Source of the DNA: Bacillota bacterium
Lineage (GTDB): Bacteria; Bacillota; Dethiobacteria; DTU022
Length of the DNA: 39,165 nucleotides
Direction: 5' to 3'
Assembly (NCBI GenBank): GCA_016874655.1
Contig: VGTO01000005.1
Coordinates: 1-39,165, forward strand
The position numbers were made by a program, and so were the translations under genes. Each line of letters opens with the position of its first letter. The first letter of the stretch is position 1. The notes under the pieces are model-generated. The model searched no databases and was not told where the DNA came from. It worked only from the letters and a program-made list of their open reading frames with translations. Positions 4,783 through 30,383 of this stretch are shown here, in pieces.

Positions 4783-5658
4783 TTACTCAAGGGGTGTTCC
4801 TTCATTCTGGGTCAGATCCCTGAATAGTTTGATCAGCCGTTTGGTGATCGGCCCTGGTTTACCGCTACCGATCAACCGCTGATCGACCTCGATCACCGGA
4901 ATCACTTCAGCAGCAGTTCCAGTCAGGAAGCATTCTTCAGAGACATATAGATCATGCCGGGTGAAAGGGACATCTCTTAGAGGGATCCCCTCTCTGGCAG
5001 CCAGTTCAATGATCGCTTCGCGGGTAATCCCTTCCAGGATCCCCAAATAGGCTGGCGGGGTAAGCAGCTCTCCGCGGCGATAAATAAAGACATTGTCACC
5101 GGTGCCTTCACAGATGTAGCCCTGGTTGGTCAACATCAGTGCCTCGAGCACACCGGCTCTGTTGGCCTCGATCTTAGCATGAATATTATTGAGGTAGTTA
5201 AGTGACTTGATTTTCGGCTCAAGAGCTTCGGCAATATTACGGCGGGTTGCCACCGTGATCACTTCCAGCCCCTTTTCATAAAGCTCCACCGGGTAGAGGG
5301 TGATTTTGTCAGCAATAATGAACACCTGAGCCTGCTTGCATTTACGTGGGTCCATTCCCAAATCTCCGACGCCCCTGGTCACCACCAGACGAATGTAGGC
5401 ATCACGCAGCTGATTGGCATTAACCGTGTCTATAACCGCCTTGATCATCTCCTCCTGGCTTAAGGGAATCGCCAGTAAGATCGAATGGGCTGACTCGTAA
5501 AGCCTCCTGATATGCTCCGCCAGCCGGAAGACCCTTCCGTTGTAAGCCCTGATCCCTTCAAAAACCCCGTCTCCGTAAAGTAAACCATGATCGAAAACAG
5601 AGATTACCGCTTCTTCATCCGGAACCATCTTGCCATTTAAATAGATTAACCTGCCCAC
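4783..5658 (-). CDS. ilvE: branched-chain amino acid aminotransferase (fold class IV)
   Basis: This PLP-dependent class IV aminotransferase makes the last step to valine, leucine and isoleucine, transferring an amino group from glutamate to the 2-oxo acid. At 291 aa it is the usual length. Motifs include GVFEGIRAYNGRVFRLAEH near residue 32, KSLNYLNNI containing the likely PLP lysine near residue 156, and the cofactor-binding CEGTGDNVFI near residue 185. The start is GTG at 5658, preceded by a near-perfect Shine-Dalgarno AAGGGGTGA. It is the first gene after the T-box leader and so leads the ilvE-D-B-N-leuC operon. D-amino-acid aminotransferases share the fold, but the operon context supports IlvE. 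Confidence 0.93.
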   Translation of the reverse strand: MGRLIYLNGKMVPDEEAVISVFDHGLLYGDGVFEGIRAYNGRVFRLAEHIRRLYESAHSILLAIPLSQEEMIKAVIDTVNANQLRDAYIRLVVTRGVGDLGMDPRKCKQAQVFIIADKITLYPVELYEKGLEVITVATRRNIAEALEPKIKSLNYLNNIHAKIEANRAGVLEALMLTNQGYICEGTGDNVFIYRRGELLTPPAYLGILEGITREAIIELAAREGIPLRDVPFTRHDLYVSEECFLTGTAAEVIPVIEVDQRLIGSGKPGPITKRLIKLFRDLTQNEGTPLE

Positions 5659-5693: not shown

Positions 5694-5726
5694 ATAAAAA
5701 TACCCCTCGCCCAAAGGGGCGAAGGG
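5694..5726 (-). terminator. T-box intrinsic terminator
   Basis: On the minus strand CCCTTCGCCC pairs with GGGCGAGGGG over ten base pairs around a short loop, followed by a U-rich tract (ATTTTTATA). It sits just after the T-box sequence, 36 bases before the ilvE start, and is the terminator arm of the switch. The alternative antiterminator would pair the 5' side of this stem with the T-box sequence. Confidence 0.9.
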
Positions 5727-5954
5727 AAATCCTCCGCGGTACCACCCTTTTTAACTGCTCTCTGTCAGCAAAGAGATAGTGCACTCAGTGATATTGATAA
5801 CGGTATCAACCCGGTCCGGTTTACTTGTAAATTTCAACCGGACGGCTCCAGACCGACTTTCAGTACCTGGCTTTGCCGGTTTTCAGCTGCTCCGACTCTC
5901 TGTAAAAGCTGGTCGCCTACTCCTGTCCTTCCTGGCCGTTACTTAAAAGATTGC
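5694..5954 (-). promoter_or_regulatory. T-box leader controlling the ilvE-D-B-N-leuC operon
   Basis: A T-box riboswitch senses uncharged tRNA and lets transcription continue when the cognate amino acid is scarce. The diagnostic sequence AGGGTGGTACCGCGG lies at 5734-5748 and is followed by an intrinsic terminator. Upstream are Stem I signatures: GGAGTAGGCGA (AGTA/GA motif) and TTACAGAGAG. A hairpin GTCCGGTT/AACCGGAC separates Stem I from the antiterminator region. By spacing from the conserved TGAA, the likely specifier triplet is GUC (5855-5857), a valine codon. That fits the genes controlled, but I did not fold the RNA, so the specifier call is tentative. Confidence 0.93.
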
Positions 5955-28501: not shown

Positions 28502-28564
28502 GTTTCAGGAAATTCCCTGCTCCTTGTCAGTAAGGGGCCACTAGTCCAGAGGGAGGTGAAAAAG

Positions 28565-29110
28565 ATGGGTCTATACGAGATTATGATGATCATTCGTACC
28601 GATCTTGAGGCGAATGAGCAGGAAGAAGCAGTAAGCGGTTTGACTGCGGTTATTGCCAAGCAGGGCGGCACGGTTTCAACCGTCTTGGATTGGCGGAAAC
28701 GAAAACTATCCTATGAAATCAACAAACTCCGCGAAGGTCAGTACTATCTGGTTTACTTCAGTGGTGATGGTGCTATCATCCCCGAACTCGAACACTACTT
28801 TAGGGTAACAGATGCGGTTATTCGCTACATGGTCGTGGCGATTGACGAGAAGGATTTCGAAGCTGCTGCGGACAAAGCTGCCGCTGAGGCTGCTGCGGTT
28901 GATACACTTCAGGAGGAAGAAGCGGTTACAGAGGAAACAGAAGTGCTTGCCACAGGCACTGATGAAAGAACCGACACTGAAGATGAAGAAGCTGAAGATG
29001 AAGAAGCTGAAACTGTTGCAGAAGGGGAAGACGAGACAGAAGATGCCTCTGCTGATGCAGAGCAACAAGAAGCTGAAGCAGAACCGGAAGAAGAGAAGCC
29101 TGCAGAGTAG
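28565..29110 (+). CDS. rpsF: 30S ribosomal protein bS6 with long acidic C-terminal tail
   Basis: bS6 binds S18 in the platform of the small subunit. The first 95 residues are a normal bS6 (MGLYEIMMIIRTDL, DWRKRKLSYEI, GQYYLVYF, FRVTDAVIRYMVV). They are followed by an extension of about 85 residues made almost only of Glu, Asp, Ala and Thr, so the protein is 181 aa against the usual 95 or so. The DNA of the tail shows imperfect GAA/GAT/GCT repeats. A longer frame upstream is not real: GGAGGTG lies before the ATG at 28565, which gives the family N-terminus. It is followed by ssb and rpsR. Confidence 0.95.
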   Translation: MGLYEIMMIIRTDLEANEQEEAVSGLTAVIAKQGGTVSTVLDWRKRKLSYEINKLREGQYYLVYFSGDGAIIPELEHYFRVTDAVIRYMVVAIDEKDFEAAADKAAAEAAAVDTLQEEEAVTEETEVLATGTDERTDTEDEEAEDEEAETVAEGEDETEDASADAEQQEAEAEPEEEKPAE

Positions 29111-29132
29111 TTTTGAAGGGACGGTGTCATAA

Positions 29133-29543
29133 ATGCTAAACCAGGTTGTTTTAATCGGTCGCCTAACTCGCGACCCCGAGTTGCGCTACACACCCGGTAA
29201 CGGAGTGCCGGTGGCTTCTTTCACCCTTGCGATTGACCGTCCGTATACCAACCAGCAGGGAGAAAGAGAAGCCGATTTTATTAACATCGTTACCTGGCGA
29301 AAGCTGGCCGAGAACTGTGCTAATTACCTGCAAAAAGGCAGTATGTCGGCAGTAACCGGGCGCTTGCAGATCCGGTCATACGAAGATAATCAGGGCGTAA
29401 AGCGCAAAGTAGCGGAAGTGGTTGCCGACAATGTCAGGTTCTTAGACCGTGGTGGTCGTTCTGCCGAAGATGCAAAAAGCAGTGAGGATTATGGTCCCAA
29501 TGTTGATGATATTAATATCAGTGAGGACGATGTCCCCTTTTAG
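29133..29543 (+). CDS. ssb: single-stranded DNA-binding protein
   Basis: SSB coats single-stranded DNA in replication and repair. The 136-aa protein has the OB fold ([39 protein letters not shown]) and a short linker ending in the acidic partner-binding tip EDDVPF, the equivalent of DDDIPF. The linker is short for the family. It lies between rpsF and rpsR, the standard Gram-positive arrangement. Confidence 0.97.
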
Positions 29544-29560: not shown

Positions 29561-29791
29561 TTGAGGCGCGATCGAGGACGGAAACCTAAAAGAAAAATAT
29601 GCAGCTATTGTGTTGATAAAATAGTAAATGTTGATTACAAACAATATGAGAAGCTAAAGCGTTTTGTCACGGAGAGAGGCAAAGTACTGCCCCGCCGTAT
29701 TTCCGGCAACTGTGCCAAGCACCAACGCCAGCTGACCAAAGCAATCAAGAGAGCCAGAATTATGGCGCTGATGCCTTTTACCTCCGAGTAA
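29561..29791 (+). CDS. rpsR: 30S ribosomal protein bS18
   Basis: bS18 is the partner of bS6 in the 30S platform. The family motif [22 protein letters not shown] and [20 protein letters not shown] are present; with Cys-x2-Cys and Cys-x3-His it could bind zinc. The frame is open from a GTG at 29543, but an AGGAGG is seven bases before the TTG at 29561, which gives a normal 76-aa protein. It follows ssb by 17 bases and ends before a terminator. Confidence 0.95.
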
Positions 29792-29936: not shown

Positions 29937-30383
29937 ATGAAAGTAATCCTCAATCAGGATGTTGCCAACCTCGGTAAGCGCGGTGAGTTAAAAGAGGTGG
30001 CAACTGGTTACGCCCGTAACCATTTACTACCACGACGGCTGGCTTTTGAGGCTACCGCCCAGCGTCTGAAAGAATGGCAACAGCAAAAAGCAAAGCTTGA
30101 AGCTGATCACAAAGAGCAGGAAGAGGTGGCCAGGCAGCAGGCTGATCGACTCTCCCGGCATAATCTCTTATTTACAATGCCAGCCGGTGAGGGAGGGCGC
30201 CTCTTCGGGTCGGTAACCCCGGGGGATATTGCCGAAAAACTAAAACAAAGCGGATTTGAAGTAGAAAAAAAACGGATCGAGCTTGAAGAACCGATCAAGT
30301 TAATCGGATGTTTTAAAGCCTATGTCCGCCTTTATCCGGGGATCAAGGCAGAGCTCAAAATCCTGGTTGAAAAGGAAGCTTAA
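29937..30383 (+). CDS. rplI: 50S ribosomal protein bL9
   Basis: bL9 is a two-domain protein of the large subunit that reaches between neighbouring ribosomes. The 148-aa protein begins MKVILNQDVANLGKRGELKEVATGYARNHLLPRRLA (first 20 and following residues are the N-domain), has a long charged helix, and a C-domain with GRLFGSVTPGDIAEKL. The frame is open 39 bases earlier, but the ATG at 29937 has GGGAG at proper spacing and gives the family start. The gdpP (yybT) gene often found before rplI is absent. Confidence 0.97.
   Translation: MKVILNQDVANLGKRGELKEVATGYARNHLLPRRLAFEATAQRLKEWQQQKAKLEADHKEQEEVARQQADRLSRHNLLFTMPAGEGGRLFGSVTPGDIAEKLKQSGFEVEKKRIELEEPIKLIGCFKAYVRLYPGIKAELKILVEKEA

Follow-up and report, generated by a model that had tools for sequence, protein, structure and literature searches.

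The rpsF locus and the extended bS6 protein

The window, i.e., the whole stretch of DNA analysed here (39,165 bases, the entire contig C5), comes from a 2.13-Mb genome assembly that consists of 152 contigs (G000). It contains rpsF, the gene for ribosomal protein bS6, with the genes for SSB, bS18, and bL9 directly downstream in the order ssb-rpsR-rplI (Table 1). The rpsF product was recognized by Pfam Ribosomal_S6 (PF01250) with 93.2 bits against a cut-off of 27, and by NCBIfam S6 (TIGR00166) over residues 2-93 with 81.8 bits against a cut-off of 42.9. The sequence gggaggtg was located upstream of rpsF in 29 of 30 family rows. Elsewhere in the window, a T-box leader (RF00230, 106 bits; 5712-5942, minus strand) lies upstream of an ORF at 4783-5658 on the same strand.

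Table 1. Features of the rpsF region, in window positions.
Feature	Position	Strand	Basis and remarks
Shine-Dalgarno-like agggaggtg before rpsF	28550..28558	+	Read from the sequence
rpsF, ribosomal protein bS6	28565..29110	+	ATG 28565 to stop 29110, 181 aa plus stop; ORF, Pfam and NCBIfam matches
bS6 core fold, residues 1-95	28565..28849	+	Pfam residues 4-91; AlphaFold pLDDT blocks 94-98; best Foldseek match B. subtilis ribosome chain f
Ala/Glu-rich predicted helical linker, residues 95-125	28847..28939	+	AlphaFold helix; pLDDT in blocks of ten 96, 87, 76, end 56
Predicted disordered acidic tail, residues 126-181	28940..29107	+	AlphaFold pLDDT blocks 45-60, without secondary structure; composition
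In-frame 15-bp direct repeat, CTGAAGATGAAGAAG x 2.3	28977..29011	+	Tandem Repeats Finder, 100% match
ssb, downstream of rpsF	29133..29543	+	ORF list, Pfam, relatives
rpsR, bS18, bS6 partner	29561..29791	+	Start TTG 29561 inferred; nearly alike in tailed and tailless species
rplI, bL9, without tail	29937..30383	+	Start ATG 29937 inferred from sequence

The preliminary description had reported a genome-encoded acidic tail from residue 96 of bS6, and both the coordinates and the composition given there were right. Codon 96 begins at nucleotide 28850, and residues 96-181 comprise 28 Glu, 20 Ala, 10 Asp, and 9 Thr (67 of 86) together with four Val, three Lys, three Gln, one Arg, and a few others. 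The net charge of this part is -34 and that of residues 1-95 is -5. The tail extends bS6 at its C-terminus, is encoded in the gene itself, and is specific to a lineage. AlphaFold2, run on bS6 with an alignment of 43 sequences, supports a predicted shape in which about 30 residues form an Ala/Glu-rich helix and the remainder is disordered and strongly acidic. An Ala/Glu-rich beginning of the tail was seen in many rows of the window's family (f1), less so in genus g4.

An overlapping gene was rejected as an explanation of the tail DNA, because the alternative frames of 25 tails were not depleted of stop codons, apart from one antisense frame with slightly too few (39 observed vs 57.7 expected); the remaining alternative frames gave 55/48.0, 276/261.8, 29/29.0, and 27/29.6 stops observed/expected. 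A Lys-rich ORF of 106 aa that passes through the tail in a second frame (28812-29132 of the window, plus strand) was also discarded, the stop counts of relatives giving no sign of a gene. The tail RNA folded no better than shuffled sequences (z -0.44), and no Rfam match reaching the gathering score was found at the rpsF region.

Distribution and repeats of the tail

In a survey of the class, 97 of the 140 genomes requested were returned; 90 had a bS6 match and 43 of the 97 belonged to f1. An rpsF match was lacking in five f1 genomes (G020, G023, G352, G353, and G355), and the 38 with a match comprised 26 tailed and 12 tailless genomes in the class genome search, with the tail in the same frame and at the same place. 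A frameshift or assembly error, which the preliminary description had named as a possible objection, is unlikely since 26 of 38 family members carry the tail in this way. The 12 tailless proteins end directly after the core at 95-96 residues, one of them reading 107 through the scripted choice of start codon. The tailed bS6 was complete in 23 genomes; in G005 and G022 the gene runs off the contig end inside the tail, and the G035 protein is without a start.

A midpoint-rooted tree was constructed from the bS6 core, SSB, bS18, and bL9 of 51 chosen rows, 13 of which had less than half of the columns. The 25 tailed f1 rows formed one clade (support 100/98) with no visible loss, and seven tailed rows of f5 and f3, from the same order, formed a separate clade (support 99/88). 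Tail presence required a minimum of two changes on the tree, for which two gains and one gain plus losses are indistinguishable under the midpoint root; inside f1, the trait changed once.

In an even draw across the phylum, a bS6 match was obtained for 143 of 144 genomes. Lengths were taken from stop-to-stop frames, which give an upper limit, and all 12 frames of at least 145 were read. Five of the 143 proteins had at least 50 residues beyond the core, namely those of the window, G123, G153, G072, and G115, and only that of the window was strongly acidic; the other four extensions were Ala/Pro-rich or charge-balanced, with 4, 1, 2, and -5 acidic minus basic residues, respectively. A larger draw gave a bS6 match in 297 of 299 genomes; the counts stated here are those of the even draw. 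The tailed bS6 proteins of f5 and f3 and the short tails elsewhere in the phylum (e.g., G098) are like that of the window in having extra, mostly net acidic residues past the core, but they are mostly shorter and lie apart from the window's clade on the tree. The extensions of G153 (L083), G072 (L084), and G115 (L085), which run 58-71 aa past the core and are charge-balanced or basic, represent a different type of tail.

C-terminal extensions of bS6 have already been published, and the tail of the window probably belongs to that kind. The earlier statement that bS6 is usually about 95 aa long holds for most of this phylum, but not for the PDB chains of 131 aa (non-modified) and 135 aa (fully modified), which we take to be those of E. 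coli. The longest bS6 among 60 of 85 PDB sequences was 7ooc_E with 215 aa, presumably from Mycoplasma pneumoniae. With 181 aa, the bS6 of the window is 46-50 residues longer than the 131- and 135-aa chains, a comparison by length only and not by the alignment procedure of Xue et al. (2022), in which, according to the available part of the paper, a C-terminal extension is one of more than 20 residues past the E. coli C-terminus (PMC9534751). The same part of the paper states that such extensions are widespread in bacteria and that their functions are largely elusive; in M. pneumoniae, secondary structure is reported for the bS6 extension, whose long C-terminal loop was traceable in the ribosome (PMC9534751). 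The terms "acidic" and "negatively charged" are absent from its main text. The M. pneumoniae protein is similar to that of the window in that the bS6 core is followed by a long gene-encoded C-terminal extension; however, the lineages differ, and the likeness drawn here concerns the extension itself. No paper on bS6 tails in f1 was found among the matches listed in the open-licence literature. The presence of one family with and without the tail, the repeats in the tail, and the size of its charge are apparently undescribed.

The repeat at 28977-29011 (score 70) was the highest of 11 Tandem Repeats Finder rows in the window. Arrays with a score of 40 or more were detected in 13 of the 26 f1 tails; every period was a multiple of three (3 to 57 bp), and the units differed between species, as in G007 (18 bp x 10.1 at 97%), G030 (45 bp x 3.2 at 97%), G008 (57 bp), and G006 (27 bp x 3.8). 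G052, from the same order, carries an array of 15 bp x 8.4 at 98%, inside which its contig ends. The difference in units between species points to a tail that is older than the arrays it now contains. Replication slippage had been proposed in the preliminary description, and the in-frame arrays with species-specific units support growth and shrinkage of the tail by this probable route. The contigs of G052 (L063), G005 (L010), and G022 (L012) all end inside the bS6 tail, where repeats probably break assembly.

Charge of the tail and candidate partners

Net charge was negative, at -12 to -47, in each of the 24 f1 tails that run to a stop codon (the value of -13 for G035 was counted on the protein without a start and is too small in magnitude), and the last residue was acidic in 20 of the 24. 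The comparison of rpsF among relatives thus bore out a tail that varies in length (145-228 aa for the complete proteins) and stays acidic. In 10 sequence pairs, which reuse two sequences (L016 and L097) and of which several are near saturation, dN/dS was 0.07-0.57 for the tail and 0.03-0.39 for the core; the tail exceeded the core in nine pairs and was below 1 in all. dS was above 1 for the tail in five pairs and for the core in two. Of 221 replacements in the tail, 123 remained in the same charge class, 91 were between neutral and charged residues, and 7 were reversals. Same-class replacements (0.557) were not in excess of the 0.55 expected from single-base mutation, and those between neutral and charged residues (0.412) were not rarer than the expected 0.33-0.39. 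Charge reversals, at 7 of 221 vs 5.6-11.8% expected, were the sole depleted class. Simulated neutral drift from the tail of the window led to a median net charge of -10 at 0.5 substitution per site and of -1 at 1 substitution per site (5-95%: -9 to 6), although the simulation contained no base-composition bias or indels and so exaggerates the difference should slippage restore acidic units. These results support the view that the net charge of the tail is probably under selection, helped by slippage that copies acidic units.

The net charges of the neighbouring proteins were compared between tailed and tailless f1 species, a set from which G020, G023, G037, G043, and G044 were left out. The mean values were +15.8 (18 species) vs +15.5 (11 species) for bS18 (p 0.09), -3.8 (19) vs -3.4 (12) for SSB (p 0.27), and +1.7 (18) vs +4.7 (9) for bL9 (p 0.16). 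The S1-domain region was slightly more acidic in the tailed species, with a net charge per residue of -0.056 (20) vs -0.034 (11), which argues against simple docking of the acidic tail on S1. The preliminary description had also suggested that the tail could mimic RNA or recruit partners, but the comparisons made of bS18, bS21, and S1-domain proteins gave no pointer to a tail-binding partner. Loss of bS21 was rejected as a cause of the tail, bS21 being present in 53 of 60 genomes of both tailed and tailless groups, and so was loss of S1, since S1-repeat matches were found in 60 of 60 genomes (long in 58) of both groups, none of them exceeding the rpsA cut-off. Of the 25 ribosomal proteins counted in the S10-L17 cluster of G000, whose names we assigned from gene order and sequence, none has a comparable tail.

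In G000 and G002, the two genomes in which its reading frame was read whole, the S1-repeat protein is fused behind a protein that we take to be IspH-like. The fused protein of G000 (L122 805-3042, C11) ends in a Lys-rich repeat tail with KAKAEEVEAKPKK-like units. Pairing of this tail with the acidic bS6 tail was considered and rejected, because the repeat was seen only in G000 among 42 genomes read. The C-terminal part of the S1 protein was net negative in 36 of 38 copies that reach a stop, in tailed and tailless genomes, with G000 and G037 as exceptions; for G012 and G023, some S1-domain residues fall within the counted stretch. Near the C-terminus of this protein, 38 of 38 stop-reaching copies (L126-L165, L122, and L124) have a peptide similar to VTLGDVFGDLF. 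It mostly precedes a variable acidic tail, with or without a bS6 tail, and has the look of a binding motif, judged from sequence.

Possible role of the tail

In our leading explanation, to which we give a probability of roughly 0.42, the coded acidic extension of bS6, with a predicted helix and disordered part and altered by slippage with its charge kept, would serve the 30S platform as a constitutive electrostatic brush. The brush action is proposed by analogy. Next to bS18 on the platform, the flexible acidic chain would extend outwards from bS6 and would tune the engagement of mRNA and S1-type proteins with the platform; the effect would resemble that of RimK-added or engineered poly-Glu tails of bS6, which change translation in Pseudomonas. 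We propose that net charge matters more than sequence, so that the length and order of the tail would be free to drift. The 12 tailless sister species in f1 manage without a tail, which counts against this reading.

In E. coli, RimK reportedly adds glutamates to bS6, and the preliminary description had suggested a similar effect for the coded tail. A search for RimK (TIGR00768, cut-off 143.4 bits) gave no match above the cut-off in 60 genomes, including the tailless sisters and the 96.5% complete genome of the window; 7 of 14 controls were above it. Sub-threshold matches of the ATP-grasp type were found in 54 of the 60 genomes, the best with 110.2 bits (G049) and that in the genome of the window with 24 bits. 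The best hit of PF08443 in the latter genome, with 19.4 bits against a cut-off of 21, falls in an ORF that presumably encodes a D-Ala-D-Ala ligase. As the tailless relatives are equally without RimK, the tail does not track RimK loss, and replacement of RimK by the tail, a candidate that was therefore dropped, is not demonstrated. The bS6 of the window was also not assigned to the RimK-modified class, there being no ligase over the cut-off and the tail lying in the gene itself, though further modification is possible. RimK-glutamylated bS6 of E. coli and Pseudomonas is alike in that negative charge is added to the same protein at the same terminus; however, in that system the acidic residues are added post-translationally under regulation and are trimmed by RimB in Pseudomonas, whereas the tail of the window is coded, much longer, and mixed with Ala and Thr.

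As an analogy, the coded poly-Glu tails of P. fluorescens are a better precedent than the parallel with RimK. According to the available part of that study, in a strain without rimBK the coded rpsF4glu allele shifts the translation of 159 genes and rpsF10glu that of 45, indicating that more acid does not simply have more effect (PMC7343187). In the same part, the authors propose a possible shift in S1 binding for these alleles and mention reported contacts between S1 and the mobile tails of both bS6 and bS18 in E. coli (PMC7343187). Family f1 offers a natural experiment on the long-open role of the acidic bS6 C-terminus. Its members resemble one another in the bS6 core and differ little in bS18, yet some carry a net acidic tail of 50-133 residues and others do not, and no RimK match exceeded the cut-off. 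Tail swaps between f1 relatives would distinguish what tail charge does from what RimK regulation does. As a highly speculative extension, to which we attach very little credence, the repeat number might serve as a heritable tuner of translation, in which slippage would alter the length and charge of the acidic brush on every ribosome in a contingency-like manner, as a hard-wired stand-in for regulated glutamylation of bS6.

An adaptation to salt or alkali is a doubtful but serious alternative, in which the tail would serve haloalkaliphiles for hydration and solubility as one element of a general trend towards acidic proteins, and would have no particular function in controlling translation. 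The bS6 proteins of f1 genomes G010 and G022 match those of Syntrophomonadaceae MAGs labelled CSSed, which we take to mean Cock Soda Lake sediment. The available part of one report describes more than 50 Syntrophomonadaceae MAGs that came from sediments of soda lakes and had Dethiobacter-related 16S rRNA (PMC6146748); the CSSed MAGs may be among them. The mean of the median pI was 5.78 in 13 tailed vs 7.27 in 12 tailless f1 genomes (p 0.0002; proteins of at least 200 aa from roughly 5 to 76 kb of each genome, with ORFs called by a simple rule), and 5.85 vs 7.16 when ORFs of at least 100 aa and the ribosomal cluster of G000 were included, but this f1 comparison amounts to one evolutionary event. 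The trend fails outside f1, with 6.76 in nine tailed f5/f3 genomes vs 6.39 in four tailless f4/f2 genomes, one with only two ORFs (p 0.60); a pI of 8.09 goes with the 85-residue tail of G051, and the tailless G042 and G040 stand at 5.37 and 5.57. Strongly acidic C-termini were found in 7 of 407 proteins from tailed vs 9 of 320 from tailless genomes among all those sampled, a count that is misleading alone because the S1-domain protein, whose contigs had been sampled, makes up 8 of the 9 cases in tailless and 1 of the 7 in tailed genomes; when it is left out, the numbers are 6 of 406 vs 1 of 312 (Fisher p 0.15), in the direction of a general shift. The less basic bL9 and the more acidic S1 region of the tailed species point the same way, but the charges of SSB and bS18 hardly differ.

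It is rather unlikely that the tail is a mere by-product of slippage, that is, a cheap low-complexity sequence grown from repeats with no selected function. The great variability of length and sequence, the species-specific units, the absence of the tail from sister species, the higher dN/dS of the tail than of the core in 9 of 10 pairs, the near-neutral proportions of charge-class replacements, and the repeat tail on the IspH-S1 gene of the same genome would all fit such an origin. However, the 25 tailed rows of one clade show no visible loss, acidity was kept against simulated drift, and the 25 proteins of the S10-L17 cluster are free of a comparable tail. The kept acidity, the dN/dS values below 1 in 10 of 10 pairs, and the mostly acidic C-termini argue against pure junk, and the charge test per substitution is weakly supportive. 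We consider it quite improbable that the tail is an aid to assembly, i.e., a built-in acidic chaperone shielding the very basic bS18 or nearby rRNA until the bS6-bS18 pair takes up its position in the 30S subunit. The two proteins are established partners, their genes lie together here, and the mean net charge of bS18 is near +16, but the sequence and charge of bS18 barely differ between tailed and tailless species.
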